Source: Cellulomonas soli
GTDB lineage: Bacteria > Actinomycetota > Actinomycetes > Actinomycetales > Cellulomonadaceae
DNA length: 64,000 nucleotides
Direction: 5' to 3'
Assembly (NCBI RefSeq): GCF_013409305.1
Contig: NZ_JACBZJ010000001.1
Span: forward strand, 1-64,000
The notes beneath the pieces were generated by a model that had not been told where the DNA came from, did not search any database, and saw nothing but the letters and a program-made list of their open reading frames with translations. Below, in pieces: positions 22,985-52,087 of this stretch; within the stretch, counting starts at the first letter, position 1, and the number at the start of each line of letters is the position of its first letter. Position numbers and translations under genes: made by a program.

Positions 22985-23071
22985 TTGAGCACCGACCAGC
23001 CCCGCCCCGCCGCAGCCCTCGGGCAGCCGCGGTCGCTCGCGGGTGGTCGCTGTCCGCGCTGCTGTCGGTAG
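22985..23071 (+). CDS. Cys-rich leader peptide of sulfur operon
   Basis: A 28-codon frame with TTG start, preceded by AGGAG and ending TAG. It begins MSTDQPRP and finishes GGRCPRCCR, so the only three cysteines (positions 23, 26, 27) sit directly before the stop. The body is R/P/A-rich without other features, as expected for a regulatory leader. It lies between a promoter and the sulfur operon, whose first gene starts 184 nt downstream. Cys-rich upstream frames are known to act as cysteine-responsive attenuators in mycobacteria. A second such frame precedes cysK at 51818. The start codon is weak and the peptide itself need not be stable. Confidence 0.62.
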   Translation: MSTDQPRPAAALGQPRSLAGGRCPRCCR

Positions 23072-23105
23072 ACGCGCCGGAGTCCCCGCGGACCCGCGCG
23101 TCCGC
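23052..23105 (+). promoter_or_regulatory. Mutually exclusive hairpins overlapping the leader Cys codons
   Basis: GTCCGCG (23052-23058), lying in the Cys-Pro-Arg codons, can pair with CGCGGAC (23087-23093). GTCCGC (23100-23105) can pair with the same CGCGGAC segment across a 6-nt loop. A ribosome stalled at the Cys codons would hide the first arm and favour the second hairpin. A further hairpin, GACGCA/TGCGTC (23120-23135), follows. This is the layout of an attenuator, but which structure terminates is not clear. Confidence 0.45.
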
Positions 23106-23255
23106 ACCCCGCGAGCGCCGACGCACCCGTGCGTCCCGGCACCCACGAGCCTGCCGCACCCCAGCGGCGTCGCTGCCGGACCCCGACCCCGGCCGCGCGC
23201 TCCCCGTCGGCCCCTGCCATCCACCCTTGCCCGAACGCCCGTCACGGAGGCGACC

Positions 23256-23891
23256 ATGCCCGCACCCATCCTCGCGACCCGGACGCGTCAGCGCGTCGAC
23301 TGGGCCACGATCGGCGTGCACCTGACGTCGACCCCGCGGCTCGGCGCGACCACTCGCGTCATCGCGGTCGACGGCTTCTCCGGCGCCGGCAAGACGTGGT
23401 TCGCCGACCGGCTCGCCCGGTCGCTGGATGCCACGCTGCTGCACCTCGACGACCTCGTGCCCGGCTGGGACGCACTGGCCGAAGGTGTCGACCGGCTCAC
23501 CGAGCGCGTCCTGCGCCCCCTGCACGCAGGCAAGCCCGCACACGTCACCCGCTACGACTGGGTCCAGGGCCGGATCGCCGAACCGATCCACGTGCCGACC
23601 GCCCCCGTCCTCGTCATCGAAGGATCAGGCGCGGGAGCCGTCGTCGACCGCACGCTCGTCGACGCCGTCCTGTGGGTCGACGTCCCGGGCACGGTTCGCG
23701 ACGCCCGGCTGGACGCCCGCTCCGACCGCGAGACCTACCTCCCGTTCCGCGACCTCTGGCACGCCCAGGAGGTCGACCTCGCCACACGCGCCTGTACCCG
23801 CGCCCGGGCCGACCACATCGTCTCGGGCGTGACGGAGCACGGAGCACGGCTGTCACCCCGGCGCACCACCGACAGCCCGGCTCGGCACTGA
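23256..23891 (+). CDS. P-loop kinase-like protein (uridine-kinase-like)
   Basis: A 211-residue P-loop NTPase with Walker A GFSGAGKT at residues 40-47 and LLHLDDLVPGWDALAEGVDRL after it, as in uridine-kinase-like proteins of actinobacteria. VLVIEGSGAGAVVDR and LDARSDRETYLPFRDLW follow. Substrate unknown. ATG 23256 follows CGGAGG. It is the first gene after the Cys-leader region and 78 bp before the importer; a CGGCCGC-GTGA-GCGGCCG hairpin (23899-23916) in that gap could lower or protect downstream mRNA. Its place in a sulfur operon is unexplained. Confidence 0.75.
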   Translation: MPAPILATRTRQRVDWATIGVHLTSTPRLGATTRVIAVDGFSGAGKTWFADRLARSLDATLLHLDDLVPGWDALAEGVDRLTERVLRPLHAGKPAHVTRYDWVQGRIAEPIHVPTAPVLVIEGSGAGAVVDRTLVDAVLWVDVPGTVRDARLDARSDRETYLPFRDLWHAQEVDLATRACTRARADHIVSGVTEHGARLSPRRTTDSPARH

Positions 23892-23969
23892 ACGATCTCG
23901 GCCGCGTGAGCGGCCGGCCGCACGACCCACCCGTCCACTGCACCCGCACACCCATCGGAAGGCACCACC

Positions 23970-24995
23970 ATGTCGACCCGCCACCCGCATCGCCTCGCGC
24001 TGCTCGCCGTCCCGTCGCTGCTCGCGCTCGCCGCGTGCTCCTCCCCGGCGGCCGGGTCGAGCGACGACGCCTCTGCCGACGGCCTCACACCCGTGACCGT
24101 CGTGCTCGACTGGACGCCCAACACCAACCACACGGGTCTGTACGTCGCGCTGGCCAACGGCTACTTCGCCGACCAGGGCCTCGACGTCTCGATCGTGCAG
24201 CCGCCCGAGGACGGCGCCGAGGCGCTCGTCGCCTCCGGGTCGGCGCAGTTCGGCGTCAGCTACCAGGAGAACGTCACGCAGGCCCGGCAGTCCGACGTGC
24301 CGATCGTCTCGATCGCGGCCGTGATCGCGCACAACACCTCGGGGTTCGCCTCCCCCGTCGACCGTGGGATCACCCGGCCGAAGGACTACGAGGGTCACGT
24401 CTACGGCGGCTGGGGCAGCCCGATCGAGGGCGCGATCCTGTCCGCGCTCGTCGCCGGTGACGGCGGCGACCCGTCGAAGGTCACCAACGTCGACATCGGC
24501 ACCACGAGCGTCATCCAGGCGTTCCAGCGCGACATCGACCTCGGCTGGGTCTTCGAGGGCTGGGACGTTCCGCTCGCGCAGGAGCAGGGCCTGGACCTCA
24601 ACCTGCAGCTCGTGCGCGACTACGACGACGCGCTCGACTGGTACACGCCCGTCCTCATCAGCAACGAGGACGTCGTGGCCGACCAGCCCGAGCTCGCGCA
24701 GTCGTTCGTGACCGCCGCGACGCAGGGCTACACCTACGCGATCGAGCACCCGGCCGAGGCAGCCGACCTGCTGCTCGAGCAGGTGCCCGACCTGGACGCC
24801 GAGCAGGTTCACGCCAGCCAGGAGTACCTGGCAGACGAGTACCAGTCGGACTCGCCCGAGTGGGGCTACCAGCGCGACGAGGTGTGGTCGGGCTTCAGCA
24901 CCTGGCTCGAGGAGAACGACATCATCGACCCGGGCTTCGACTGGGCGTCGGCCTACACCAACGAGTTCGTCGAAGGCGTGGACGACCAGGCATGA
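23970..24995 (+). CDS. NMT1/SsuA-type ABC substrate-binding lipoprotein
   Basis: A 341-residue lipoprotein. The signal peptide ends in ALAACS (Cys near residue 23). VVLDWTPNTNHTGLYVALANGYF and YQENVTQARQSDVPIVSIAA are characteristic of the NMT1/THI5 fold shared by binding proteins for sulfonates and for thiamine pyrimidines. WTPNTNHTGLY is closest to the pyrimidine (ThiY) branch. No TPP riboswitch is visible upstream, while a Cys-rich leader and sulfur enzymes share the operon, so I favour a sulfur compound. GGAAGG precedes the ATG. Confidence 0.88.
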   Translation: MSTRHPHRLALLAVPSLLALAACSSPAAGSSDDASADGLTPVTVVLDWTPNTNHTGLYVALANGYFADQGLDVSIVQPPEDGAEALVASGSAQFGVSYQENVTQARQSDVPIVSIAAVIAHNTSGFASPVDRGITRPKDYEGHVYGGWGSPIEGAILSALVAGDGGDPSKVTNVDIGTTSVIQAFQRDIDLGWVFEGWDVPLAQEQGLDLNLQLVRDYDDALDWYTPVLISNEDVVADQPELAQSFVTAATQGYTYAIEHPAEAADLLLEQVPDLDAEQVHASQEYLADEYQSDSPEWGYQRDEVWSGFSTWLEENDIIDPGFDWASAYTNEFVEGVDDQA

Positions 24996-25801
24996 CCGAG
25001 ACGCACACGACCGGGACGAGGCCGGCACGCCCGGCGGTCGTCCCCCGGACCCGGAGCCGGCTGCTGCCGCCCCTCCTCGGCGTGGTCGCGCTCCTGGTCG
25101 TGTGGCAGACGGCGACCTGGCTGTTCGCCGTGCCCGCGTGGATGCTGCCGAGCCCGTCGCGGATCGTCGTCGAGGCCGTGGCCGTCGCGCCCGACCTCGG
25201 CGACGACCTGCTGGCCACCACCTGGCTCACCGTCCTCGGCTTCGCGATCGGTGCCGTGCTCGGCCTGCTCGTCGCCGCTCTGCTGCACCTGGTCGACCCG
25301 CTCAAGCAGGCCGTCTACCCCCTGCTGATCGTCAGCCAGAACGTGCCCACCATCGCGCTCGCACCGCTGCTGGTGATCTGGTTCGGGTTCGGCCTGACCC
25401 CGAAGATCGTGGTGATCGTCCTGGTGTGCTTCTTCCCGGTCGCCGTGGCCGCGATGGACGGCCTGCGCGCCGCGGACCCCGTGGCCCTGGACTACCTGCG
25501 GATGTCCGGGGCCGACCGGGGGCAGGTCTTCCGACTGCTGGAGGTCCCCGGCTCGCTGCCCACGGTCTTCTCAGGCCTGAAGATCGCCGCGACCTACGCC
25601 GTGATGGGCGCGGTCGTGGCCGAGTGGGTCGGCTCCGACCGCGGGCTTGGGCACTACATGCTGCTGCAGAAATCCGCGTTCCGGGCCGACCGGATGTTCG
25701 TCTCGATCGCCGTGATCATCGCGCTCAGCCTGCTGCTCTTCGGTCTGATCGCGCTGCTCGAGCGGCGGCTGACCCGTTGGAGGCCCCGCCGTGAGCGCTG
25801 A
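24992..25801 (+). CDS. ABC transporter permease, SsuC/ThiX type
   Basis: A 269-residue permease with about six membrane helices, starting at ATG 24992 in an ATGA overlap with the binding-protein gene. The EAA loop is DYLRMSGADRGQVFRLLEVPGSLPTVF in part (LEVPGSLPTVFSGLKIAATY). PLLVIWFGFGLTPKIVVIVL is typical of the sulfonate/nitrate/taurine permease family. Its last 11 bp overlap the ATPase gene. Confidence 0.92.
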   Translation: MTETHTTGTRPARPAVVPRTRSRLLPPLLGVVALLVVWQTATWLFAVPAWMLPSPSRIVVEAVAVAPDLGDDLLATTWLTVLGFAIGAVLGLLVAALLHLVDPLKQAVYPLLIVSQNVPTIALAPLLVIWFGFGLTPKIVVIVLVCFFPVAVAAMDGLRAADPVALDYLRMSGADRGQVFRLLEVPGSLPTVFSGLKIAATYAVMGAVVAEWVGSDRGLGHYMLLQKSAFRADRMFVSIAVIIALSLLLFGLIALLERRLTRWRPRRER

Positions 25802-26603
25802 TCCTCGTCTGCACCTCGACGACGTGCACGTCTCGTTCCCCACGGCCGGCGGCGAGCTGTCCGTGCTCGACGGGGTGTCCCTGACCGTGCAGCCCGGTGA
25901 GTTCGTCTCGATCATCGGCCCGTCCGGCTCCGGCAAGAGCACGCTGCTGCACGTGGTCGGCGGGCTCGTCCGTCCGGGCTCGGGGTCGGTCCGGCTCGAC
26001 GACCAGGACGTCACCGGCAGCCGCGGCCACATCAGCCACATGCCGCAGCAGCCCGCGCTGCTGCCATGGCGCTCCGTGCTGGAGAACGTCCTGCTCGCGC
26101 AGGAGGTCGCCCGCACCCGCACGCCCGCCTCGGTCGAGGAGGCGCGCGACTGGCTCGACCGGCTCGGCCTGGGATCGTTTGCCGACGCCTACCCGCACAC
26201 CCTGTCCGGCGGCATGCAGCAGCGGGTCGCGTTCCTGCGCGCGCTGCTCTCGCCACGTCGGTTCATGTGCCTGGACGAGCCGTTCTCCGCCCTGGACGCG
26301 CTGACCCGCGCCGACATGCAGCACTGGTTGCTGCGCCTGTGGGAGGAGACCCGGCGCTCGGTGCTGTTCGTCACGCACAACATCGAGGAGGCCCTGCTGC
26401 TCTCGGACAGCGTGTACGTCCTCTCCCACCGGCCGACCCGGATCCTGCAGAAGGTCGACGTGCCGTGGCCGCGCCCGCGCGCCGAGGACGTCGTCGACCA
26501 CCCGGACTTCATCCGCCTGCGCCGCGAGCTCGCGGCGCTGCTGCGCCCGACCGATGCGGTCCACCCCGCCCTGCCCGCCCACGCCACCTCGGAGCTGTCA
26601 TGA
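25791..26603 (+). CDS. ABC transporter ATP-binding protein, SsuB/TauB type
   Basis: A 270-residue ATPase with GTG start 25791. Walker [10 protein letters not shown], a Q-loop in MPQQPALLPW, the signature LSGGMQQR, Walker B FMCLDEPFSALD and the switch His in FVTHNIEEAL are all present. The MPQQPALLPWRSV stretch and DEPFSALDALTR are characteristic of the sulfonate/nitrate family. It overlaps both neighbours, so it is translationally coupled. Confidence 0.93.
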   Translation: MSADPRLHLDDVHVSFPTAGGELSVLDGVSLTVQPGEFVSIIGPSGSGKSTLLHVVGGLVRPGSGSVRLDDQDVTGSRGHISHMPQQPALLPWRSVLENVLLAQEVARTRTPASVEEARDWLDRLGLGSFADAYPHTLSGGMQQRVAFLRALLSPRRFMCLDEPFSALDALTRADMQHWLLRLWEETRRSVLFVTHNIEEALLLSDSVYVLSHRPTRILQKVDVPWPRPRAEDVVDHPDFIRLRRELAALLRPTDAVHPALPAHATSELS

Positions 26604-27562
26604 GCACGCTGCGCGTCCTGCTCGGCTACCACCACCCCTGGCCCAACGACGCGGGCCTCTACCAGGCGCGCGACGGCGGGTTCCTCGACGACGTCGACCT
26701 GCGCATCGCCGTCGTCGACCCGGGGCGCGGCGACACGCTCGCCCACCTCGCCCGCGACGAGGCCGACCTCGGCATCGTGCCGACCAACCGTCTGGTGGCG
26801 GCGCGCGGGCGCGGTCAGCGGGTCACCGCGGTCGCCGCGATCAACCAGGTGGGCCTCGAGACGCTGCACTCGCTGCGCTCGCTGGGCGTGCAGCGCCCCC
26901 GGGACCTCGCCGGGCGCCGGGTCGCCCTCAACCCCACACCGCGCGGGCTGGCGATGGTCCGCCACCTGGTCGCCACCGATGGCGGCGACCCCGACGCGGT
27001 CACGATCGTCGACTCCGGCCCGCGCGAGCTGCAGTCCCGCGACCTGCTCGCAGGTACGGCCGACGCCTACTTCGGCGCGTACTGGGCGTGGGACGAGCTC
27101 TTCGACACGCACCCGCCCGAGGACCGGCTCAGCTGGCCGGTCAAGGACCACGGGGCACCGCCGTTCCACTCCTACGTGCTCGTCGCGCGCGAGCAGGTCC
27201 TGGAGCAGGACCCGCGGGGTGTCCGTGCGGTGCTCGCCGGGGCCGCCCGCGGGTACCGGGCCGTCGCGGACGACCCCGAGGCCGGCGCCGCAGCCTTCGA
27301 ACGCGTCACGCCGTGGTTCCCGCGCGCGACGCTGCGCCGCTCGATCGAGCTGGTCTCCCCCACCTGGTTCCACGAGGGGACGTGGGGCGTCCTGCGCGCG
27401 GGCCTCGTCGACGACTACGCCCGGTGGCTCCTGGCCCGGGGCGGGCTGCCGCACGTCGACGGCCTCGCCGGCGCGTGGACGTCGGCGTTCCTGCCCGAGA
27501 CGGCGGTCTCGTCGGCCGCGTCGGTCTCTTCAGTCGCGTCGGGCGCGGAGGCCACGGCGTGA
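26600..27562 (+). CDS. Binding-protein homologue without signal peptide
   Basis: A 320-residue NMT1/SsuA-like protein starting at ATG 26600 (ATGA overlap). It starts MSTLRVLLGYHHPWPNDAG, with no hydrophobic leader and no lipobox, so it should stay in the cytosol. HLARDEADLGIVPTNRLVAARG and SLRSLGVQRPRDLAGRRVALN match the two-lobe ligand-binding fold, and DAYFGAYWAWDELF lies in the second lobe. Being placed between the transporter ATPase and the monooxygenase, it may carry the imported substrate to the enzyme or sense it. The C-terminal 25 residues are low-complexity A/S/V. Function unknown. Confidence 0.78.
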   Translation: MSTLRVLLGYHHPWPNDAGLYQARDGGFLDDVDLRIAVVDPGRGDTLAHLARDEADLGIVPTNRLVAARGRGQRVTAVAAINQVGLETLHSLRSLGVQRPRDLAGRRVALNPTPRGLAMVRHLVATDGGDPDAVTIVDSGPRELQSRDLLAGTADAYFGAYWAWDELFDTHPPEDRLSWPVKDHGAPPFHSYVLVAREQVLEQDPRGVRAVLAGAARGYRAVADDPEAGAAAFERVTPWFPRATLRRSIELVSPTWFHEGTWGVLRAGLVDDYARWLLARGGLPHVDGLAGAWTSAFLPETAVSSAASVSSVASGAEATA

Positions 27563-28572
27563 CCCTTCGGCCCTCGTTCGTGCTGCCCGGCACCGTGCAC
27601 CCGGGCACCGACCGGCAGCGCACGCTCCTGGAGATCGCCGAGCACCTGGACGAGGTGAGCGGGTGGCACGCCGTGTTCGTGCCCGACACGATCCTCGCGC
27701 TGCGGTTCTACGAGTCGACCGTGCTGCTGGCCGCCCTGGCGGCCCGCACCCGTCGGATCCGGCTGGGAGTGGCCTGCCTGTCGACTCTCGGCCTGCGCCA
27801 GCCGCTCGTCGTGGCCCAGCAGTGGGCGGCGCTCGACGACCTCTCGGGGGGCCGCATGACGTTGATCGCCTGCCCGGGGAACCGCACGGGCGCCAAGCAC
27901 GAGCGCGAGCGGGCGGCCTTCGGCCTGGAGTACGACGAGAAGGTCGAGCGGATGCTCGACGCCCTCGACCTGCTCCGTGTGGCGAGCACCAACGACCGCT
28001 TCTCGTACCACTCGCCGTACCTCGACCTCGAGGACGTCGAGCTGACCCCCGGCTTCCGGCAACGTCCGCTGCCCATCTGGATGGTGGCCAACCCCTCGCC
28101 GCTCGCCGCGGACGACGGGTTGCGCCGGGTGCTCGACCGGGTCGCCCGGTACGGCGACGGCTGGCTGACCTACCAGGTCACGCCCGACCTGCTCGAGCGT
28201 CGGCTCGCCGTGCTCCAGGAGCTGCGCGCCGCCCGGGGTGCGGGCGGCCCGTTCCCGGTGGCGGTCCAGGTGAACCTCTGCGTCGCCCCCACCCGTGAGG
28301 AGGCGTTCACCGACGCAGCCGCCGCCTGGGACCTGCAGAACACCCGGGGGCTGTCGTTCGCGCAGCTGCTGAGCACCTCGGCCATCGGCACCCCCGAGGA
28401 CTGCGCCGCGTTCCTGGAGTCGTTGCACGCCGCCGGTGCCACGGACGTGCTCCTGCACCCGCTGTCGGCCGACCCGGCGACGCAGGCACGCCGGGCCTCG
28501 CGCGACGTGCTCCCGCTGCTGCCGGGCGCCCCGCTGCACGCACCGGGGCCTACGGCCGGGGTGGGCCGATGA
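27559..28572 (+). CDS. LLM-class flavin-dependent monooxygenase
   Basis: A 337-residue luciferase-like protein with GTG start 27559 (GTGA overlap). TIM-barrel features include AVFVPDTILALRFYESTVLLA, IRLGVACLSTLGLRQPLVVAQ, WAALDDLSGGRMTLIACPGN and the later DGWLTYQVTPDLLERRL. In a transporter operon ending with a sulfurtransferase, it is a good candidate for cleaving a C-S bond of an organosulfur substrate with O2 and reduced FMN, as SsuD does; it differs from SsuD in detail, so the substrate is likely different. No flavin reductase is encoded nearby. Confidence 0.83.
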   Translation: MTLRPSFVLPGTVHPGTDRQRTLLEIAEHLDEVSGWHAVFVPDTILALRFYESTVLLAALAARTRRIRLGVACLSTLGLRQPLVVAQQWAALDDLSGGRMTLIACPGNRTGAKHERERAAFGLEYDEKVERMLDALDLLRVASTNDRFSYHSPYLDLEDVELTPGFRQRPLPIWMVANPSPLAADDGLRRVLDRVARYGDGWLTYQVTPDLLERRLAVLQELRAARGAGGPFPVAVQVNLCVAPTREEAFTDAAAAWDLQNTRGLSFAQLLSTSAIGTPEDCAAFLESLHAAGATDVLLHPLSADPATQARRASRDVLPLLPGAPLHAPGPTAGVGR

Positions 28573-29447
28573 GCGCTCGACCGCTGATCGGTCCGCGCCG
28601 GCTCGCCGAGCTGCTCGGCGCACCCGATCTCGTCGTGCTCGACGCGACGGTCGACCTCCCCCGGCCCGAGCACGACGGTGACCACCGGGCCACCAGCGGC
28701 CGTGCCGGCTGGCAGGCCGAGCACCTGCCGGGCGCCCTGCACCTCGACCTGCTGGACGACTTCGCCGACCTGACCGCCGGCTACCACTTCGCCCATCCGG
28801 ACGGCGCGACGGCGACGCGGGTGCTGCAGGACCTCGGGCTGCACGACGGGTCGACGGTCGTCCTGTACGACCGCACCGACGGCTTCTGGGCGGCGCGCGC
28901 CTGGTGGTCGCTGCGAGCCCTCGGACTGCACGCCACCGTGCTGGACGGTGGCCTGGCCGCGTGGCGTCGTGCGGGCGGAGCCGTCGCCGCAGCTGCCGAT
29001 CCCCGCCCGAGCACCCGGGCCGGGACGGGGGGCGAGGCCGCCGCCCGCGTGCTCAGGCTGCGCCCCGACCCCGGGTTGTGGGCCACGCGCGACGACGTGC
29101 TCGCCACGATCCAGGGGCGCAGCGACACGCTGCTCGTGTGCGCGCTGGGTGCCGAGCAGTTCACCGGGACGGCCCTCACGCGCTACAGCCGCCGCGGCCA
29201 CATCCCGACCTCCAGGAACCTGCCAGCCAGGGACCTGGCGGGCCAGGACGGGACGTTCGACGTCGCCCACCTGCGCGAGCTCGCCCGTGGGCTGCGCGGC
29301 AAGGACGTGCTGCTGTACTGCGGCGGCGGGATCTCGGCCAGCTACGCCGCGCTCGGCCTGGTCGTCGCCGGCCACGAGCGGGTGCGGATCTACGACGGCT
29401 CACTCGAGGAATGGTCCGCGGACCCGTCCCTGCCGCTCGTCGTCTGA
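28569..29447 (+). CDS. Two-domain sulfurtransferase (rhodanese / 3-mercaptopyruvate type)
   Basis: A 292-residue protein with two rhodanese domains. The C-terminal domain carries the active Cys251 in LLYCGGGISAS; the N-terminal domain has the structural repeat (VVLYDRTDGFWAARAWWSL) without cysteine. It would move sulfane sulfur from thiosulfate or a persulfide to an acceptor. The loop CGGGIS is between those of thiosulfate and mercaptopyruvate enzymes, so the donor is undecided. Last gene of the operon (ATGA overlap), followed by a strong bidirectional hairpin. Confidence 0.9.
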   Translation: MSARPLIGPRRLAELLGAPDLVVLDATVDLPRPEHDGDHRATSGRAGWQAEHLPGALHLDLLDDFADLTAGYHFAHPDGATATRVLQDLGLHDGSTVVLYDRTDGFWAARAWWSLRALGLHATVLDGGLAAWRRAGGAVAAAADPRPSTRAGTGGEAAARVLRLRPDPGLWATRDDVLATIQGRSDTLLVCALGAEQFTGTALTRYSRRGHIPTSRNLPARDLAGQDGTFDVAHLRELARGLRGKDVLLYCGGGISASYAALGLVVAGHERVRIYDGSLEEWSADPSLPLVV

Positions 29448-29488
29448 GCGACCCGGCGCCGCCACCCGGGCGACCGCGTCACCCGTGC

Positions 29489-29522
29489 ACGCCCCGATCC
29501 GCACCCTCGCGGGTCGGGGCGT
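29489..29522. terminator. Bidirectional terminator between sulfur operon and clpX
   Basis: ACGCCCCGA (29489-29497) pairs with TCGGGGCGT (29514-29522); the loop holds an inner CCGC/GCGG pair. It lies between two convergent stop codons 81 bp apart. Confidence 0.75.
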
Positions 29523-29528
29523 CGTGCG

Positions 29529-30803
29529 TCAGGCCGACTTCTCCCGCGGTGCGCGCTTGTCGCCCGCCTCGTCCCTGGGGACGAGGGTCGGGTTCACGTT
29601 CTTCTGCACGACGTCGCGGGTGATGAGCACGCGCGCGACGTCGTCGCGGCTGGGCACCTCGAACATCACCTGCTGGAGGACCTCCTCCATGATGGCGCGC
29701 AGACCGCGGGCGCCCGTGCCGCGCAGCAAGGCCTGGTCGGCGATGGCTGCCACGGCCTCGTCGTCGAACTCCAGCTCGACGCCGTCGATCTCGAACATGC
29801 GCTGGTACTGCTTGAGGAGGGCGTTGCGCGGCTCGGTGAGGATCCGCACGAGCGCGTCCCGGTCGAGCGGGGACACCGTGGTGATGACGGGGACACGGCC
29901 GATGAACTCGGGGATCAGCCCGAACTTCAGCAGGTCCTCCGGCATGACCTCGCCGTAGACGTCGACGTCGTCGGCGGAGTGCAGCGGTGCACCGAATCCG
30001 ATCCCGCGGCGCCCGGCACGGCTCGTGATGATCTCGTCCAGCCCGGCGAACGCACCGGCGACGATGAACAGCACGTTCGTCGTGTCGATCTGGATGAACT
30101 CCTGGTGCGGGTGCTTGCGCCCGCCCTGCGGCGGGACCGACGCCGTGGTGCCCTCGAGGATCTTCAGCAGCGCCTGCTGCACGCCCTCGCCGGACACGTC
30201 GCGCGTGATCGACGGGTTCTCGCTCTTGCGGGCGATCTTGTCGACCTCGTCGATGTAGATGATGCCCGTCTCGGCCTTCTTGACGTCGTAGTCAGCGGCC
30301 TGGATGAGCTTGAGGAGGATGTTCTCGACATCCTCACCGACGTAGCCGGCCTCGGTGAGCGCCGTGGCGTCCGCGATCGCGAACGGCACGTTCAGCATCT
30401 TCGCGAGGGTCTGCGCGAGGTACGTCTTGCCGCAGCCCGTGGGGCCGATCAGCAGGATGTTGGACTTCGCGATCTCGACCTGGTCGTCGCCTCCGCGGCC
30501 CGACTCACCGGCCTGGATGCGCTTGTAGTGGTTGTAGACCGCCACCGCGAGCGACCGCTTCGCGGGCTCCTGGCCGACGATGTACTGCTCGAGGAAGTCG
30601 AAGATCTCCTTCGGCTTGGGCAGCTCCACCATGCCGACCTCGGTGGCCTCGGCGAGCTCTTCCTCGATGATCTCGTTGCACAGGTCGATGCACTCGTCGC
30701 AGATGTAGACACCTGGACCGGCGATCAGCTTCTTGACCTGCTTCTGTGACTTCCCGCAGAAGGAGCACTTGAGGAGATCCGCACCGTCCCCCATTCGAGC
30801 CAC
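29529..30803 (-). CDS. clpX: ATP-dependent Clp protease ATP-binding subunit ClpX
   Basis: A 424-residue AAA+ unfoldase that feeds substrates to ClpP. The N-terminal zinc finger shows CSFCGKSQ and CDECIDLC within the first 40 residues. Walker A is GPTGCGKT, the pore loop GYVG, Walker [13 protein letters not shown], and the IGF loop that docks on ClpP is [13 protein letters not shown] 30803 follows GGAAGGAG; the upstream 31 codons are not conserved-looking. Separated by 185 bp from clpP2 and probably with its own promoter. Confidence 0.97.
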
Positions 30804-38727: not shown

Positions 38728-39152
38728 AAATCCCCCTTCATCGACAACCCCCCAGCTCGGGTTGGGGCCGGGTAGTACCCGTAGTACCAGATACTCGGTT
38801 CCGCCGTGCCGGTTATCGATGACTCGTGTCATCTGCCTCCTGACTTCTCGAGAGTTGACCGGGTGTGCGCGTTGAAGGGATCCGGGCCGGCACGACTGAG
38901 GAAGAGCAGCCTGGAGTCAGGCTGACGCCTCCACCGATTGGCACACGGTGGTCCGACCGCTGTGCCGGGGAGTTCCGGTCCCTGCTCTGACCTGCACTAA
39001 CGCCCCCCGCCGCACATCCCCACCCGGCCACGTCGGGGAGCACCCTCTCACCCGTCGTGGCCCACCCCGATGACCCGCGACCGCCCAACAGCGGAACCAT
39101 CGTTCCCCTCTCCCCACCGCGCTCACCGACCCACCGCCGGGGCGCATGCAAC
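38728..39152. other. Gene-poor stretch of the island
   Basis: No supported gene in these 425 bp. The segment near 38770-38789 has the palindrome GGGTAGTACCC (38770-38780) and a second GTAGTACC copy 9 bp on, possibly an operator for the secreted-protein gene. Frames on both strands here are short or have poor composition. Confidence 0.5.
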
Positions 39153-39182
39153 GACCCGCACCAGAGAGGGCCGGTGCGGGTC
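39153..39182 (-). terminator. Terminator of the small-gene pair on the minus strand
   Basis: GACCCGCACC (39153-39162) pairs with GGTGCGGGTC (39173-39182) across a 10-nt loop, 42 bp after the stop at 39224. Confidence 0.7.
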
Positions 39183-39223: not shown

Positions 39224-39394
39224 TCAGCGGCGTCCGATCTCGTACCCGTCGCCGCTCGTCAGGCTGCCGATGGCTGTGCGGGGGTCGATGGCGTCCAGGG
39301 CGGTCATCAGCAGCCGGATCCACCAGTGACCGAGCCTCTCCTCCGCTGGGTCGGCCTGGGTCTCGGTCAGGGTCTCGGCCGTCGTCTCGGTCAT
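39224..39394 (-). CDS. Small acidic protein of unknown function
   Basis: A 56-residue protein beginning MTETTAETLTETQADPAEER and ending SGDGYEIGRR, with an amphipathic middle (LGHWWIRLLMTALDAID). ATG 39394 follows GAGGAGCACG, a good ribosome site. It lies 53 bp after the membrane-anchored protein gene and probably shares its transcript. Confidence 0.6.
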   Translation of the reverse strand: MTETTAETLTETQADPAEERLGHWWIRLLMTALDAIDPRTAIGSLTSGDGYEIGRR

Positions 39395-45451: not shown

Positions 45452-45472
45452 GCACCACATCCGCATTGCCCC

Positions 45473-45502: not shown

Positions 45503-45584
45503 CAGCGCGAGCCCGGACCTGGAGCGGCGTGCGTCGTCGCCCGGTGTGGCTCCCCTGCGTCCAACGCTGCACCAGGAGACCCAT

Positions 45585-48002
45585 GTGAGCGCCAGAACGA
45601 CCGTTCGCCACCTCGCCACCCTGTCCCTCGTCGCCGCACTGACGGCCACGGGTGCCGTCGCCGCGAGCGCCGGACCACCCAGGACCCCGACCCCACCGAC
45701 CCCCACGTTCGCCGACGCGACCGTGCACGACCCCTCCGTCGTCGTCGCGGACGACGAGGTGTGGGTGTTCGGCTCGCACCTGCAGGTCGCCAAGACGGAC
45801 GACCTCATGGCCTGGGAGCAGGTCGCCTCGGGCGTGAACGCCGACAACCCGATCTTCGACGACGTGGTCAGCGAGCTCGCCGAGACGTTCGCGTGGGCGC
45901 AGTCCGACACGCTGTGGGCCGCGGACGTGATCCAGCTGGGCGACGGCCGGTTCTACATGTACTACAACGCGTGCAAGGGCGACTCGCCCCGCTCGGCGCT
46001 CGGCGTCGCGGTCTCCGACGACGTCGACGGACCCTACGAGGACCTGGGCATTGTGCTGAGGTCCGGCATGTGGGACCAGATCAGCGAGGACGGCACCGTC
46101 TACGACGCGCGGGTGCACCCCAACGTCGTCGACCCGGACGTGTTCTACGACGCGGACGGCAAGCTGTGGATGGTCTACGGCTCGTACTCGGGCGGCATCT
46201 TCGTCCTCGAGATGGACCCGCAGACCGGCAAGCCCCTGCCCGACCAGGGCTACGGCAAGCACCTCGTGGGCGGCAACCACAGTCGCATCGAGGCGCCCAA
46301 CGTCATGTACGACGAGGGCGCCGGCTACTACTACCTGTTCCTCTCGTTCGGCGGGCTGGACGCCACGGGCGGCTACAACATGCGCGTCGCGCGCTCGCTG
46401 AACCCCGACGGCCCGTACCTGGACGCCGAGGGCAACGACATGAGCGAGGTCAAGGCCGACCCGAGCCTGCCACTGTTCGACGACGCCTCCATCGAGCCGT
46501 ACGGCGTGAAGATCATGGGCAGCTACCTGTTCCAGCGTGAGGTCGGCGACCCGGGCACCGGCCTGGGCGTCGGGTACGTCTCCCCCGGCCACAACTCGAC
46601 GTACGTCGACGAGGCCACGGGCCGCAAGTTCCTCGTCTTCCACTCCCGGTTCCCGGGTCAGGGCGAGACGCACAACGTGCGGGTGCACGAGATGTTCATC
46701 AACAGCGCCGGCTGGCCCGTCGTGGCGCCCTACCGCTACGCGGACGACGGCTCGACGCCGGCCCCGCTGGCGAGCGCCGCCGCCACGACCTCCAAGACGC
46801 ACGTCGCGAAGATCACGCGTGAGGACGCCGTCGGGCAGTACGCGCTGATCGACCACGGCAAGGCCATCAACACCACGCCGGTCGAGTCCGTCTCCGTGAA
46901 GCTCGAGAAGAACGGCAAGGTCACGGGCGCCCTGAAGGGCACGTGGACGCTGAAGGGCTCGAACCGGGCGCGGATCGTCTCCGGCGGCCAGACCTACGAC
47001 GGGGTGTTCACCCGGCAGTGGGAACCCGACCGCCAGGAGTGGGTCGTGACGTTCACCGTCCAGTCGGCGGCAGGTGTGTCCCTGTGGGGTAGCCACGTGG
47101 ACCCGCTGTCCGCCAAGGCAGCCGTCGGTGCCGTCAAGGCCGACCTCGACCTCGGCGACACCTCGGCCGTGGTCGCCGACCTCACCCTGCCGACCGTCGG
47201 CACCAACGGGGTCGCGATCACGTGGGCGTCCAGCGACGCCGCCGTCGTGTCCACCACCGGTGAGGTGACCCGCCCCGAGAACGGCGCGGGCGACGCCACC
47301 GTGACCCTCACGGCGACGATCACCAAGGACCGCCGGACCGCGACCGCCGCGTTCACGGTCACGGTGCTGGAGCGCACCTCGGGCGGCACGATCGGCGCCT
47401 GGTCGTTCGAGGGCGACCTGGCCGACTCCACGGGCGCGCTGCCGGCCGCCACGGTGACCGGAGCCCGCGTCGACACCACCGGCGGCACGGTCTCCTACGT
47501 GGAGGGCGTGCAGGGCCAGGCCGTGCACCTCGACGGCGCGAGCGGCGTCCGCCTGCCCGACGGGCTGATCAGCGGGCCGACCTACACCGTGTCGATGTGG
47601 CTGCGGCCCGACGCGCTCACCCAGTTCACGTCCGCGTTCTTCGGTGCCCGCGACGCGAACAGCTGGGTCAGCGTCGTGCCCAAGGGCCACGACGGCGTGG
47701 GCGGCAACACGATGGTGTGGTCCGGGTCGGCCTGGTACGACGCCGGCACCCCGCTGCAGATCCCGGTCGGGCAGTGGAGCCACGTCGCGCTCACCGTCGA
47801 CTCCGGGGACGTGACCGTCTACGTCGACGGCGTGCCGCAGTTCACCGGCACGGGCTTCCCCGATGTCTTCACCACGACCACAGGCACCTTCGCGGTGGGC
47901 GTGAACTGGTGGGACACCCCGTTCGCCGGTGACGTCGACGAGCTCTCGGTGCACGGCTCGGCCCTGACGGCCGAGGAGGTCGCGGCGCTCGCCACGCGCT
48001 GA
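45585..48002 (+). CDS. Secreted GH43 family glycosidase, probable arabinan-degrading enzyme
   Basis: An 805-residue exported enzyme with a signal peptide (HLATLSLVAALTATGAVAAS). The GH43 five-blade domain covers about 40-400; the base Asp49 lies in TVHDPSVVV, another Asp in NVVDPDVFYD and the acid Glu in HSRIEAPNV. FAWAQSDTLWAADVIQLGDG resembles endo-1,5-arabinanases. A beta-sandwich domain with ALIDHGKAINTTPVESVSV follows, then an Ig-like domain (VAITWASSDAAVVSTTGEVT) and a C-terminal LamG/concanavalin-like domain (VSMWLRPDALTQFTSAFFGA) that may bind polysaccharide. The GTG start follows AGGAG. Other alpha-arabinosidase or xylosidase activity is possible. Confidence 0.88.
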   Translation: MSARTTVRHLATLSLVAALTATGAVAASAGPPRTPTPPTPTFADATVHDPSVVVADDEVWVFGSHLQVAKTDDLMAWEQVASGVNADNPIFDDVVSELAETFAWAQSDTLWAADVIQLGDGRFYMYYNACKGDSPRSALGVAVSDDVDGPYEDLGIVLRSGMWDQISEDGTVYDARVHPNVVDPDVFYDADGKLWMVYGSYSGGIFVLEMDPQTGKPLPDQGYGKHLVGGNHSRIEAPNVMYDEGAGYYYLFLSFGGLDATGGYNMRVARSLNPDGPYLDAEGNDMSEVKADPSLPLFDDASIEPYGVKIMGSYLFQREVGDPGTGLGVGYVSPGHNSTYVDEATGRKFLVFHSRFPGQGETHNVRVHEMFINSAGWPVVAPYRYADDGSTPAPLASAAATTSKTHVAKITREDAVGQYALIDHGKAINTTPVESVSVKLEKNGKVTGALKGTWTLKGSNRARIVSGGQTYDGVFTRQWEPDRQEWVVTFTVQSAAGVSLWGSHVDPLSAKAAVGAVKADLDLGDTSAVVADLTLPTVGTNGVAITWASSDAAVVSTTGEVTRPENGAGDATVTLTATITKDRRTATAAFTVTVLERTSGGTIGAWSFEGDLADSTGALPAATVTGARVDTTGGTVSYVEGVQGQAVHLDGASGVRLPDGLISGPTYTVSMWLRPDALTQFTSAFFGARDANSWVSVVPKGHDGVGGNTMVWSGSAWYDAGTPLQIPVGQWSHVALTVDSGDVTVYVDGVPQFTGTGFPDVFTTTTGTFAVGVNWWDTPFAGDVDELSVHGSALTAEEVAALATR

Positions 48003-48006
48003 CCGC

Positions 48007-48056
48007 ACGGACGGCGACCGGTCGGGCCCACGCGGGTCCGGCCGGTCGCCGTCCGT
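48007..48056. terminator. Bidirectional terminator after GH43 gene
   Basis: A 15-bp perfect stem (48007-48021 with 48042-48056; arm ACGGACGGCGACCGG) and a 20-nt loop lie between convergent stop codons. Confidence 0.8.
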
Positions 48057-48074
48057 CCGGCGTGCCGGACGGGG

Positions 48075-48332
48075 TCAGGCCGCGACGGACTCGCGGTCCG
48101 CCGTCACCAGCGGGCGGCCGTCGAGCCCGAGCTCACGGAGCACGCGACCTTCGTCGTCGACCTCGAGCACGCTCGCGCGGCGCACGCGGGTGGGGCCGGC
48201 CGTGCCGAGCTGCTGGGCGAGCTCGCCGAGCGCCTGCACGGCCGCGGGCAGGGACGGCCGGCGCAACCGCAGGGGTGCGACGTCGGCGACCGCGTCGGCG
48301 GTGGCCAGCACGACGGTGGCGATGTACTGCAT
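48075..48332 (-). CDS. Small conserved-looking hypothetical protein
   Basis: An 85-residue protein starting MQYIATVVLATADAVADVAP after the strong ribosome site GAGGAGGT. It contains AAVQALGELAQQLG and RASVLEVDDEGRVLRELG, an alpha/beta pattern with no cysteine and no membrane helix. No family recognised; isolated on the minus strand between GH43 and the chemoreceptor. Confidence 0.65.
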   Translation of the reverse strand: MQYIATVVLATADAVADVAPLRLRRPSLPAAVQALGELAQQLGTAGPTRVRRASVLEVDDEGRVLRELGLDGRPLVTADRESVAA

Positions 48333-48534
48333 CGGTGACCTCCTCGAGGGTCGGGCTCCGGACCCGCCCGTGCGGCGACTCGCGGTTCAGGTCGACGGAC
48401 CGACCTCTCCTGCCCATCGGCGCGTGGTCGGGATGCGTGAGCGATGGGACGGCGTGAGCGAGAGCGCCGCGTCGGCGCGACGACAGCGCCGGCTGCGGTG
48501 ACCCCTGCACCTCGGGGCACCGCAGCCGAGGGCG

Positions 48535-50151
48535 TCAGATCCGGAACTGGCCGACGAGCCCTCGCAGCTCGGCCGACATCCGCGCGAGCTCACCGACCGA
48601 CTGCAGCGACTCGCCCACCCCGGCGGTGGTGGCGTCGGCCGCGTCGGCGACGCCGACGATGTTCGCGGCGATCTCCCCCGCACCCGTGGCGGCCTCCGCG
48701 ACCGAGCGGTTGACCTCGTTGGTCGTGGCGGTCTGCTCCTCGACGGCGGAGGCGATCGTGGACTGGTAGCCGCTGATCGAGTCGATGACCTCGGAGATCC
48801 GGCCGATCGCCGTGACCGCGGACTCGGTGTCCGCCTGGATCATCTCGATGCGCCGGGCGATGTCCTCGGTCGCGCGCGCCGTCTCCTGCGCGAGCTCCTT
48901 GACCTCGCCCGCGACGACGGCGAAACCCTTGCCCGCCTCGCCCGCACGCGCCGCCTCGATGGTCGCGTTGAGTGCGAGCAGGTTCGTCTGGCCGGCGATC
49001 CCGCTGATGACCTTGACCACGTCCCCGATCTCGCGACTCGACTCCCCGAGCCGGTTGACGGTGCCGGTCGTCTCCTGCGCGGCCTCGACCGCCCGGCCTG
49101 CGACGTGCACGGCCTCGGAGGCGTTGTGCGCGATCTCGCGGATGGAGGCGCCCATCTGCTCGGACGCGGACGCCACGGTCTGCACGTTCCGGGAGACCTG
49201 CTCGGCCGCGGCCGCGACGACGCCCGCCTGCGAGGCGGTCTCCTCGGCGCCCGAGGCGATCAGCTGGGAGGTGCCGGCCATCTGCTCCGTGGCGCTGGCC
49301 AGCGACCCTGCGGAGGCGTCGATCGTGCCCACGATGCCCCGCAGCCGCTCGACCGCGGCGTCCAGGGAGCCGCCCATCGTGCCGACCTCGTCGCGCGAGG
49401 TGAGCCCGGCGAGGTGGGTGAGGTCGCCCTCGGCGAGGGCACCCGAGACGGCGCGGACACGGTTGATCCCCCGCACGATGCTGCGGGCGACGCCGATCCC
49501 GATCGCCACGGCCAGGGTCAGCCCGAGGAGCAGCAGGACCACGACCTGGGTGCGGTTCGCTCCGTAGGCCTCGGTCGAGGCCTTCACGGCGGCGGCCGCG
49601 TCGGTCTTCTCGAGCTCGACCATGCTCGCGAGCGTGTCCATCATCGAGAGGATGTCGGCCTGCGAGTCGTCGCGCGCGACCGCCCAGGTGGCCAGGTCCC
49701 CGGCTCGTCCGGCCGGGAAGAGCCGCTCGTCGCGGAGGGTGACGTACTCCTCCAGCGCGGCGGAGAAGTCGGCGAGCATCCCTTCGCGCGCGCTGTCCAG
49801 ACCGGTGGCCTGGTACGCGTCCATCGCGGTGCGCGCGTCCGCCTCGGCGTCGGCGGCCTTGCCCTCGAAGGTCGTCAGGGACTCCTCGTCCTCGGAGAGC
49901 ACCTGGTTCATCACCGCGATCCGCATCTCGAGCGTCGCCCGGCGCATCGTCGCGGCGAGCTCGAACCGGCCCATGTTGGCGCGGTAGAGCGTCTCGGTCC
50001 CCTGGTTGGTCGACCCGAGGGCGGAGATGCCGAGCACGCCGACGGCGACGGCGACGGCCGCGGCCGTGAAGACAGCGACGAGGATCTTCGTGCTCACGCC
50101 GCGGTCGGTGAACCAGCTCAGCAGTCCACGCGTTCCGGGATGCTCGTTCAT
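48535..50151 (-). CDS. Methyl-accepting chemotaxis protein
   Basis: A 538-residue chemoreceptor. Membrane helix 1 ([20 protein letters not shown]) and helix 2 ([20 protein letters not shown]) enclose a four-helix-bundle ligand domain of about 150 residues. A HAMP domain follows ([20 protein letters not shown]). The signalling tip reads [20 protein letters not shown] and continues [15 protein letters not shown]. It would pass signals to CheA/CheW, not encoded here, so motility is implied. ATG 50151 follows AAAGGGG. Confidence 0.95.
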
Positions 50152-50524
50152 GAGGGCCCCTTTCAAGGGCAGCAATGGTGTCGGGACCCGTGGCGACGAG
50201 GCCGAGGCGCAGGGTGCGGCGCCGACCTGTCCATCGGGCGGGTCGACATCGAGTCATAGGACTTAGGTCACCCTTGCCTTTCACCCCATGACATTGCGGC
50301 ACGCTCCCGCAGGTCAGTCGCCCGCCGACCCTTGACGAGAGCCGGGTGAAACCGCTCTCGCGCGCCTGGCCAGCACGGTCGGAGGTCCTGGATCGGACGA
50401 TCCTCGCTCACGTCCCGGACACGTCCGACGAGGCAGCGGCGTGCCGGTCGGCCGACCCCGGGGCGGGTCATCGCCGGTTCCCCGCACGGCGGGCGGGGGG
50501 CCCAGGGCGCGGACGGGGCATGGG
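50152..50524. other. Intergenic stretch upstream of the chemoreceptor
   Basis: No supported gene in these 373 bp. The tract 50255-50290 is AT-richer than its surroundings and probably holds the chemoreceptor promoter; I see no clear boxes. Confidence 0.4.
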
Positions 50525-50553
50525 AAAGGCCCGGTCCCCTCACGGGCCGGGCC
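50525..50553 (-). terminator. tRNA-Pro terminator
   Basis: On the minus strand GGCCCGG (50547-50553) pairs with CCGGGCC (50528-50534), followed by TTT (50525-50527), 46 bp after tRNA-Pro. Confidence 0.7.
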
Positions 50554-50598
50554 GTTCTCCTGCCGCTCGCGCCGGCACGGCGCCGACGGCTCACACGG

Positions 50599-50672
50599 TC
50601 GGGGTGGCGGGATTCGAACCCACGACCTTCCGCTCCCAAAGCGGACGCGCTACCAACCTGCGCCACACCCCG
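50599..50672 (-). tRNA. tRNA-Pro (anticodon TGG)
   Basis: A 74-nt cloverleaf: acceptor CGGGGTG/CACCCCG, anticodon stem TCCGC/GCGGA enclosing TTTGGGA with anticodon TGG, T loop TTCGAAT, discriminator A. CCA is not encoded. Confidence 0.95.
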
Positions 50673-50795
50673 TGGCACAGGAAGCCTAGTGCCCGCCGAC
50701 CGCACGCCCCACGCCGCGCGACCCGTCGCGCACGCCCCGGTGGCACCCGGCCGGGCACGGTCGACCCACGGACCGCCGTGCGGGCCGGGCCGTGG

Positions 50796-51569
50796 TCACC
50801 AGCCGCTCTCACCTCGCAGCACGACGTCGGAGCCGCCGTCGACGAACACCAGCTGGCCGCACAGGTGCGTGTTCGACTCGCCGACGAGCCAGGCGTGCAG
50901 CGCGGCAGGGACCTCGGGGCCCATGATCCCGTGCAGCGGCATCGGCACGAGGGTGAGCAGCTGCTCGCGCGCCTCCGCGGTGGCGGTCATCTCGGCCGTC
51001 ATGGGTGTCGCCACGACCCCGGGGCCGATCGCGTTCAGCGGGATCCCCGCGCCGGCCCAGTCGGCGGTCGCTGCGTGCCGGCGCATCCAGCGGGTCAGCG
51101 CGACCTTGGTCGAGGAGTAGATCTGGTCGCCCTTGTCCTGCTCGACCAGCACCGTGGCGCGGGCCAGCGCGCCGGGTTCGTCGTCGGCGAGCGCCCGCTC
51201 GACGAGCTCCTCGTCGTGGGCCATGAGCGTGGCCATCGAGCTGGTCAACGAGGCACGAGGAGCCGGCGAGCCGACGAGCAGAGGGCGCAGGCCTTCGAGG
51301 GTGGCCACGGCGCCGAAGTAGTTCACCGACACCGTCAGCGGGGTGGGGATCGCGAGTCCGGCGTTGGCCACGACGGCGTCGATCGTGCCTCCCGACAGGG
51401 CACGGACCTGCTCGACGAGCGAGGCGCGGCCACCGACGGTCGCCAGGTCCACCTCGACCTCGGCGTCGTGCAGGTCGACCCCGATGACCCTCTCGCCGCG
51501 GGCCCGCAGCAGCTCGGCGGTCGCCCGCCCGATGCCCGAGGCCGATCCGGTGATGACGACGGTGCGCAT
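50796..51569 (-). CDS. Short-chain dehydrogenase/reductase
   Basis: A 257-residue SDR. The cofactor motif is TGSASGIG, NAG is present in VANAGLAIP, and the catalytic YxxxK is IYSSTKVAL. GVDLHDAEVEVDL suggests an Asp after strand 2, so NAD is the likely cofactor. It resembles 3-alpha-hydroxysteroid and coniferyl-alcohol dehydrogenases; the substrate cannot be read. ATG 51569 follows GGAGGAGG. Single minus-strand gene divergent from cysK. Confidence 0.88.
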   Translation of the reverse strand: MRTVVITGSASGIGRATAELLRARGERVIGVDLHDAEVEVDLATVGGRASLVEQVRALSGGTIDAVVANAGLAIPTPLTVSVNYFGAVATLEGLRPLLVGSPAPRASLTSSMATLMAHDEELVERALADDEPGALARATVLVEQDKGDQIYSSTKVALTRWMRRHAATADWAGAGIPLNAIGPGVVATPMTAEMTATAEAREQLLTLVPMPLHGIMGPEVPAALHAWLVGESNTHLCGQLVFVDGGSDVVLRGESGW

Positions 51570-51731
51570 GGTGCCTCCTCCGAGAGGGGCGCCGGCCGCG
51601 GGCCGGCGACCTCGCCGACTCCTGACCTTTTTCACGCTAGACGCACGGCCACCACCGGCGAGTGACCTACGTCCCGCGCGCGAGGACGTCCCGCCGATCG
51701 GGAACCTTTGCGCGGGTCACGGCGTTAGGGC

Positions 51732-51737
51732 TACCGT
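51732..51737 (+). promoter_or_regulatory. Candidate -10 box of the cysK operon
   Basis: TACCGT lies 80 nt upstream of the Cys-rich leader frame at 51818, and transcription from it would include the leader and its hairpins. Confidence 0.4.
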
Positions 51738-51817
51738 CAGTCAACTTCGGCGTGTCGATGCCGGTCCTCGCGACCGGGCCAGCACGCCCGTGGACCAGGG
51801 ACGAGGAGGCGAGGAGC

Positions 51818-51901
51818 GTGCGCAACCGCACCGCCGCCACCCCCCTGCGTGCCCACGCCGTGCGCCGCCCTGCCGCGCACACCTGCTGTCGCTGTCTCTA
51901 G
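51818..51901 (+). CDS. Cys-rich leader peptide of cysK-cysE operon
   Basis: A 27-codon frame with GTG start after GAGGCGAGGAG, ending TAG. It begins MRNRTAATPL and finishes AAHTCCRCL, so all three cysteines (23, 24, 26) sit just before the stop. The cysK start is 186 nt beyond the stop. Stalling at the Cys codons when charged tRNA-Cys is scarce would alter folding of the following mRNA. It resembles the frame at 22985 in length, R/P/A-rich body, Cys placement and spacing to the first gene. Expression is unproven. Confidence 0.7.
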   Translation: MRNRTAATPLRAHAVRRPAAHTCCRCL

Positions 51902-52007
51902 AGCGCTGGCCGACCTCCACGCGAGGACACCCACGCCCCGGGGCGCAGTCCCCCCGCGCCAGCGCTCGCCCCACGCCGACCTCCTCGGGACCCTCGCGGT
52001 CCCGAGG
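51901..52007 (+). promoter_or_regulatory. Attenuator-like hairpins between leader peptide and cysK
   Basis: GAGCGCTGGC (51901-51910), starting on the last base of the leader stop codon, pairs perfectly with GCCAGCGCTC (51958-51967). CCTCGGGACC (51983-51992) pairs with GGTCCCGAGG (51998-52007), a 10-bp stem with a 5-nt loop that could terminate. A ribosome at the Cys codons would cover the first arm. The two stems do not share bases, so classic switching is not obvious. Confidence 0.5.
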
Positions 52008-52087
52008 CCACGGCCCAGCACCGCCGCTCGTGCACCTCCCGTCCAGTCCCCCAGCCGCGCACGCGGCACACCACCCGAAGAGGAACC

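Follow-up and report, generated by a model that had tools for sequence, protein, structure and literature searches.

Leader frames and the genes behind them

A 64,000-nucleotide (nt) stretch of the Cellulomonas soli genome (family Cellulomonadaceae; positions 1 to 64,000 of contig NZ_JACBZJ010000001.1, assembly GCF_013409305.1), referred to below as the window, carries two short cysteine-tailed leader frames, each with a purine-rich ribosome site ahead of it and an operon behind it. Leader A (22985 to 23071, forward strand) has 28 codons and a TTG start, and its peptide ends in GGRCPRCCR; leader B (51818 to 51901, forward strand) has 27 codons and a GTG start, and its peptide ends in HTCCRCL. 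Both are closed by TAG, and in both the penultimate codon is TGT, which is the last cysteine codon of the frame. The stop of leader B is separated by 186 nt from the ATG (52088) of cysK, the gene for cysteine synthase A (52088 to 53023, forward strand; TIGR01139, 447.9 bits against a cut-off of 350.95), which is followed by a serine O-acetyltransferase gene (cysE/epsC; 53034 to 53618, forward strand; NF041874 and TIGR01172 above cut-off). Leader A ends 184 nt ahead of an ATG at 23256, where a seven-gene operon starts, referred to below as the second operon; a GntR/FCD regulator gene (22125 to 22877, reverse strand) diverges upstream, as it also does in Sanguibacter.

The preliminary description of this DNA had placed both frames correctly and had reported 28 and 27 residues, three terminal cysteines, and ribosome sites, all of which are present. 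It had also taken the matching peptide lengths and the nearly equal distances from stop to gene as signs of one design. These numbers are right but do not carry that conclusion: the lengths of cysK leaders in related genomes vary, and because 30 such leaders have spacers of 135 to 259 nt, the agreement between 184 and 186 nt is a coincidence.

Both strands of the 64 kb were searched for frames whose final six codons include at least three for cysteine and that have a start codon no more than 60 codons away; A and B were the only ones. A looser rule, two cysteines in the last six codons, returned 12 frames including A and B; eight of the other 10 lie within long gene-like frames, one (28372) lies within the luciferase-like monooxygenase (LLM) gene of the second operon, and one is at 17138. 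NCBIfam returned no family for either leader peptide. Rfam, applied at its gathering threshold to the whole window, detected two tRNAs and nothing else, and at E ≤ 1 around leader A it gave a sub-threshold sX9 match alone (E 0.2).

Across the genome, the pattern TGYCKNTAGASS has seven matches, compared to 72 for the reversed control pattern, and by our reading only A and B precede a gene on their own strand. The matches at 503232, 3789353, and 4020777 lie inside genes, and the one at 530200 lies where two genes on opposite strands meet. Behind the match at 214717 (L148) no own-strand gene was seen, the flanking frames ending towards each other. A 19-codon frame, VAVCICRTCGCRPRPTPCR, with five cysteines and a TAG stop, occupies this last position. 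A further pattern, TGYTGYCGNTGYN{0,6}TAG, gave five matches in the genome, of which the one at cysK alone was judged to be a leader.

Conservation in relatives and a third leader

Conservation was estimated at 30 cysK loci, the best-scoring 30 matches across 61 genomes of the family, a sample biased to close relatives. A frame with a start codon and at least three cysteines in its last 12 residues was found upstream of cysK in 22/30 relatives and in 0/30 antisense controls. In the other eight regions, a frame with an in-frame start codon ends in Cys-x-stop and has two or three cysteines in its last 12 codons. Each of the 30 relatives thus has, ahead of cysK, a cysteine-ending leader that begins with a start codon. 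As a control, the strict rule was applied ahead of other genes for NMT1-type binding proteins in the family, where it was satisfied in 1/26 upstream regions.

The choice of codons is equally regular. The penultimate codon is the last cysteine codon in 30/30 cysK leaders, and it is TGT in 29 of them. TGT is otherwise rare: cysteine is encoded by TGT once and by TGC 162 times in the sulfite-reductase-family genes of the family genomes, and by TGT seven times and TGC 48 times in an approximate gene list for the window. The cysK leaders stop at TAG in 28 cases and TGA in two, compared to 29 TGA and one TAG for the cysK genes themselves. Conservation of this kind strongly supports cysteine-dependent control of cysK, where the leader is almost certainly cysteine-responsive.

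For leader A, an orthologue with readable upstream DNA was available in Sanguibacter gelidistatuariae only, the contigs of the other two relatives with this operon starting too late. The Sanguibacter leader (L007 and L066, the same locus) ends in RPCCARCR, can be aligned with leader A, and precedes the same kinase gene. The binding protein encoded downstream is 71 to 74% identical to its counterpart in the window, and the leader, the penultimate TGT, the TAG, and a stem at the stop are all kept; both second-operon leaders end in TGT-Arg-TAG. Judged from these two diverged orthologues, cysteine-dependent control of the second operon is reasonably supported, and its leader is very probably cysteine-responsive. 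The true marks common to A and B are a rare UGU one codon ahead of a rare UAG, a stem abutting the stop, and a C-rich spacer without U-runs.

Two covariance models were used to follow the leader RNA in relatives: R1, which includes both second-operon leaders, and R2, built from cysK leaders alone. At E ≤ 0.01, R1 had matches in 44/61 family genomes. Among the 50 R1 matches listed, 44, spread over 43 genomes, are found no more than 350 nt upstream of cysK; the six away from cysK comprise the second operon (two training sequences) and four sites inside long frames. Matches adjacent to cysK were found in 18/35 family genomes outside the training set. Seven further R1 matches (E 0.03 to 9) occur in the C. 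soli genome; two were opened, and neither has a cysteine leader at the match. With strict filters, R1 matched in 4 of 296 genomes of the class, two of the four matches lying inside long frames and the credible ones being those of C. soli and one family member only. R2 finds the cysK leader of the window at 66 bits. Judged by these matches, the modeled element is a family trait at cysK, with two known copies in the genome of the window.

A third leader was found elsewhere in the C. soli genome. The frame VSMCRPCAVPADTRACCLRSI lies 101 nt ahead of a nitrite/sulfite-reductase-family gene that starts at 3562548 on the reverse strand and whose best NCBIfam models score below cut-off; two genes of the phosphoadenosine phosphosulfate (PAPS) reductase family follow, cysH and cysD by eye. 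Relatives were represented by 30 sulfite-reductase loci, the best-scoring 30 of 49 matches listed and again biased to close relatives. Under a rule looser than that used for cysK, requiring at least three cysteines and no more than 40 codons per frame, a cysteine-rich frame was found upstream of this gene in 23/30 relatives and in 4/30 antisense controls, the mean in Markov sequences being 2.3 and the maximum 5. These leaders use TGT 69 times and TGC 42 times and stop at TGA in 20/23; TANNNT stands 5 to 9 nt ahead of the start in 12/23 (raw count). They possibly represent a second, leaderless-like architecture.

The presence of three operons with cysteine leaders in a single genome supports the idea of a regulon. 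The regulon half of the cysteine-attenuation regulon that had been proposed before thus stands as a working hypothesis, carried by conservation and by the third leader. In the same genome, no cysteine leader precedes another cysK/cystathionine-synthase-like gene or two additional NMT1-type loci.

The hairpin in the stop codon and the mode of control

Directly at the stop codon of each window leader, a hairpin begins. Stem A pairs GACGCGC (23071 to 23077, forward strand), which starts at the G of UAG, with GCGCGTC (23096 to 23102); stem B pairs GAGCGCTGGC (51901 to 51910, forward strand) with GCCAGCGCTC (51958 to 51967). The stem is about 10 base pairs long at cysK and 7 to 9 base pairs long, with different letters, at the second operon, where the arms in Sanguibacter are GACGCGCCG and CGGCGCGTC. 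A stem that starts from the third base of the stop and has the arms GAGCGCTGGC and GCCAGCGCTC, or a paired variant of them, is present in 26/30 cysK leaders; 24 of the 26 form an unbroken helix of at least seven pairs, and two bulged ones (L050 and L055) were judged by eye.

When the leaders were compared singly to shuffled sequences, 17/24, a set that includes the two second-operon leaders, reached p<0.05, and the stem of the Sanguibacter second-operon leader was significant alone (p=0.010). In the 26 aligned stem sequences, 94.2% of the cells pair, compared to 28 to 47% when the arms are slid against each other. There are 19 cells changed on both sides (shuffled mean 3.9), and the covariation score is 0.238 (shuffled 0.113); 0/500 shuffles were as high in either measure. 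These statistics concern stem-bearing leaders only, and the ends of the aligned pieces had been set at the stem.

Downstream of the stop, both window spacers are rich in C. Spacer A (23072 to 23255, forward strand; 184 nt, C 95, G 54) is a candidate Rho-loading region, and spacer B (51902 to 52087, forward strand; 186 nt) has C 94 and G 51. By C minus G in their best 150-nt stretch, they rank fifth and fourth, respectively, of 12770 in the 64-kb window. At the cysK loci, the C-G skew of the spacer is 0.253 compared to 0.023 in the gene, and it is higher than that of both the gene and the promoter side in 30/30; a crude gene caller was used for these spacer measures. The top C-rich, G-poor 150-nt stretch of the window (38971 to 39160) is at neither leader, and the three frames around it have no Pfam family. 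Nearby, a 56-codon frame on the reverse strand (39224 to 39394), MTETTAETLTETQADPAEERLGHWWIRLLMTALDAIDPRTAIGSLTSGDGYEIGRR, may be a small peptide gene.

Our analysis suggests the following course of events. We infer that leaders A and B are translated and gauge the supply of charged tRNA-Cys. At low cysteine, the ribosome would halt at the UGU/UGC codons just ahead of UAG, and at ample cysteine it would proceed onto the UAG stop. By footprint geometry, a ribosome at the stop would cover the 5′ arm of such a hairpin, while a ribosome at the upstream cysteine codons would not. The hairpin could therefore read the position of the ribosome, since its 5′ arm, which begins with the final base of the stop, would be covered in the first case and free in the second. 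Where ribosomes finish and leave, Rho-dependent termination would take place in the C-rich untranslated spacer; where they stall, transcription would read through into the operon. Cysteine shortage would then raise cysK-cysE, the ThiY-like second operon, and the sulfate-assimilation operon behind the third leader together. Since neither a U-run nor a competing helix was found, and no change was predicted at the ribosome site, we take Rho termination governed by ribosome position as the best candidate. We regard this explanation as a whole as somewhat favored, and place similar trust in gating of the stem by ribosome position; the assignment of Rho as the effector is tentative and slightly less probable than its negation.

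A number of observations weigh against this reading. Stem A of the window is not significant alone (p=0.076), and four of the 30 cysK leaders (L040, L041, L042, and L043), two of which have TGA stops, are without a stop-abutting stem, through loss or a different design. Of five covariation measures, two failed: pairs with a double change number 4 compared to 2.6, with 89/500 shuffles as high, and there are seven pair types compared to 7.8 in shuffles, no excess. Given these two failures, and with the four stemless leaders outside the covariation count, shared ancestry may account for part of the signal. Conservation of the stem is firm, and covariation in it is good but not decisive. For the second operon, only two orthologous leaders are readable, and R2 misses the leader both in the window and in Sanguibacter. 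The R1 match at this operon is circular because its leaders were training sequences; together with the failure of R2, this means that it is the codon, the stop, and the position of the stem, not sequence similarity, that unite A and B in one design. No alternative partner for the 3′ arm scored above shuffles in 23 of the 26 stem-bearing cysK leaders (0/23 up and 0/23 down), so that no switch in pairing accounts for an influence of the stem on the outcome. C-richness is, moreover, a weak proxy for Rho sites.

Two other modes of control have to be weighed against Rho gating. Classical attenuation, in which an antiterminator helix and a U-tract terminator exclude each other, would fit the usual geometry of a leader peptide with a stem beside its stop, and a strong further hairpin lies near 51983 to 52007 in the cysK spacer of the window. 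However, the longest T run is 1 to 2 in 30/30 cysK spacers, no terminator-like site was found at either window leader, and in the 23 cysK leaders analyzed the 3′ arm has no alternative partner above shuffles. The traits of an intrinsic-terminator attenuator, a hairpin with a U-run and an alternative helix, were thus not found, and the attenuation half of the preliminary proposal, understood in the classical sense, is not supported; we consider it the least probable of the mechanisms. The missing U-tract terminator agrees with translation attenuation, in which the first gene's ribosome site is buried by the leader RNA at ample cysteine and becomes exposed once a ribosome stalls, and such a mechanism is cited for Mycobacterium smegmatis in PMC13236596. 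Yet when the 5′ arm was made unavailable, as it would be under a ribosome at the stop codon, the predicted accessibility of the ribosome site changed by a mean of −0.002 (up in 6/27, down in 9/27), a check of the stop-abutting stem only, in a thermodynamic model only. We consider translation attenuation a less likely option than Rho termination gated by ribosome position, although far from a negligible one.

The second operon and the meaning of its leader

The second operon, all on the forward strand, begins with a P-loop kinase-like protein (23256 to 23891; PRK/AAA_33, PRK06547 below cut-off) and continues with SBP1, a lipoprotein-like (by eye) binding protein of the NMT1/THI5 family (23970 to 24995), and with the permease (24992 to 25801) and ATPase (25791 to 26603) of an ATP-binding cassette (ABC) transporter. 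They are followed by SBP2, an NMT1/THI5-family protein without a signal peptide by eye (26600 to 27562), the LLM monooxygenase (27559 to 28572), and a mercaptopyruvate-sulfurtransferase-like rhodanese that scores below the equivalog cut-off (28569 to 29447). The sulfurtransferase is present in 4/4 genomes carrying the operon, and the LLM in 2/4.

SBP1 belongs by sequence to the NMT1/ThiY branch. It scores 230 bits with NMT1, 338 bits with 4nmy (thiamin-bound), and 128 bits with 3ix1 (formylaminopyrimidine-binding), the latter two being its closest solved relatives, and its clade is sister to ThiY-like proteins of Bacillota (support 100/98). Orthologues are rare: 4/221 family genomes have one at E ≤ 1e-100, and in a sample of 396 genomes of the order SBP1 finds itself only at E ≤ 1e-90. 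Among 80 loci, the kinase, sulfurtransferase, and GntR neighbors occur together in Sanguibacter only. The fold predicted for SBP2 from aligned sequences is nearest to ThiY/thiamin-binding proteins and THI5, with DszB ranking well below ThiY and THI5. The SBP2 family is widespread (~50% identity in Streptomyces, Pseudomonas, and Paraburkholderia); 29 aligned members share invariant Y10, H12, P13, W14, N16, and H122, and some carry the UniRef name thiamine pyrimidine synthase. SBP2 may be an uncharacterized cytosolic enzyme. Plasmid searches for SBP2 and the LLM gave no useful context.

Related loci are mostly preceded by the thiamin pyrophosphate (TPP) riboswitch, which was found at 16/17 Bacillota loci examined (of 79) and at 6/13 loci of the same family. 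None was detected in the window, upstream of the second operon at E ≤ 1, or at the Sanguibacter locus (L066). The sole TPP riboswitch found in the C. soli genome (1825501 to 1825632) lies ahead of a gene whose product is the binding protein of a thiamine ABC transporter (TIGR01254 above cut-off). Judged by these matches, the second operon is a ThiY/thiamin-type transporter operon in which the cysteine leader appears to have replaced the TPP riboswitch of its relatives. A sulfur role of the operon, which the preliminary description had drawn from its leader, is plausible: its binding protein falls in the thiamin/thiamin-pyrimidine family, and one of its genes encodes a mercaptopyruvate-sulfurtransferase-like protein.

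That leader A arose by chance, in a 5′ region rich in GC, was also weighed. In favor of chance are the 12 frames that pass the two-of-six rule, the gene-less five-cysteine frame at 214717, and the failure of R2 to detect leader A; the stricter three-of-six rule, however, leaves A and B alone in the window, only these two genomic TGYCKNTAGASS matches are followed by an own-strand gene, and the leader with its TGT, TAG, and stem persists at the diverged Sanguibacter locus, so that we consider a chance origin very improbable. If the leader is genuine, the question is what the operon contributes. Synthesis of the thiazole part of thiamin costs cysteine sulfur, and import of preformed thiamin or a precursor could thus spare cysteine rather than supply sulfur. 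The proximity of SBP1 to thiamin- and thiamin-pyrimidine-binding proteins and the TPP riboswitches at related operons agree with such sparing, but the sulfurtransferase and the monooxygenase would be superfluous for simple uptake, and the genome has another thiamine binding protein, under TPP control. Alternatively, the transporter, flavin monooxygenase, periplasmic-binding-fold enzyme, and sulfurtransferase could form an SsuD/Dsz-like set that takes up a sulfonate or another organosulfur compound and frees its sulfur. However, SBP1 is far closer to thiamin-type proteins than to SsuA (1.2e-6, below cut-off), the low rank of DszB relative to ThiY and THI5 does not fit, and the LLM is absent from half of the operons. 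We consider cysteine sparing and organosulfur import equally probable, each being less likely than not.

The leaders belong to a known kind of regulation, the cysteine leaders of actinobacteria, to which the stop-locked hairpin and the exchange of sensors may add new points. According to Seliverstov 2005 (PMC1262725), cysteine leader peptides precede cys operons of Mycobacterium and Propionibacterium acnes and cbs of Bifidobacterium longum; in mycobacteria, neither a conserved terminator hairpin nor a poly-pyrimidine motif is described there, and Rho is raised weakly. The leaders studied here share with those a short frame, cysteine codons near the stop, a position ahead of a cysteine-synthesis gene, and the lack of a terminator hairpin, but differ in the stop-abutting hairpin (26/30) and the C-rich spacer (30/30). 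Conserved cysteine codons near the stop of a frame preceding a cysteine-metabolism gene, the mark of such leaders, are found at cysK in 30/30 and at the sulfite-reductase gene in 23/30 (looser rule); the second operon has them in 2/2 readable cases, its link to cysteine metabolism being itself in question.

Mycobacterial polycysteine leaderless short frames, several per genome, precede cysteine-metabolism operons according to PMC9094748 and PMC13236596, with related frames in Shell 2015 (PMC4633059). They resemble our leaders as cysteine-rich upstream frames, the sulfite-reductase leader of C. soli being the most similar; in contrast, the cysK and second-operon leaders have ribosome sites of their own, with no obvious leaderless start, and a stop-abutting stem, and the mycobacterial mechanism is cited there as translational, unlike the Rho termination proposed here. 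In the comparable Escherichia coli toiL-topAI system (PMC12121999), a ribosome stalled on a short upstream frame acts on structure at a ribosome site and thereby on Rho-dependent termination, but the system senses antibiotics and centers on occlusion of the ribosome site, whereas here an amino acid would be sensed and occlusion is unsupported. Compared to ThiXYZ-type ABC transporters for thiamin pyrimidine or thiamin (3ix1, 4nmy), the second operon has the SBP1 match and the adjoining permease and ATPase in common; it differs in having a cysteine leader and no detected TPP riboswitch, and it adds the kinase, the NMT1 protein without a signal peptide, the sulfurtransferase, and sometimes the LLM monooxygenase. 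Judging by its title, Lyubetsky 2014 reportedly drew sulfur roles for PF00480/PF14340 proteins from the way their genes are regulated, the same line of argument applied to other protein families. In the literature searched, no description was found of a stop-abutting hairpin class or of a TPP-to-cysteine leader exchange on a ThiY-type operon.

A bolder view is that a rare cysteine codon placed one codon ahead of a rare stop and a hairpin starting inside that stop form a distinct class of amino-acid sensor, in which the final move of the ribosome, either a wait for Cys-tRNA or completion at UAG, decides Rho termination in a C-rich spacer, that this class replaced the TPP riboswitch in a few family members, and that the importer now harvests sulfur from thiamin-like compounds under cysteine starvation; taken in full, we consider it speculative and rather unlikely. 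At a more modest level, the 2005 prediction of cysteine leaders in actinobacteria included no conserved hairpin, and a stop-locked hairpin found across the family would provide a handle on their mechanism. Leader A also offers a lead to the function of a transporter operon that would be classed as thiamin uptake on sequence grounds alone. It suggests, finally, that in one transporter family the sensor has shifted from TPP to cysteine.

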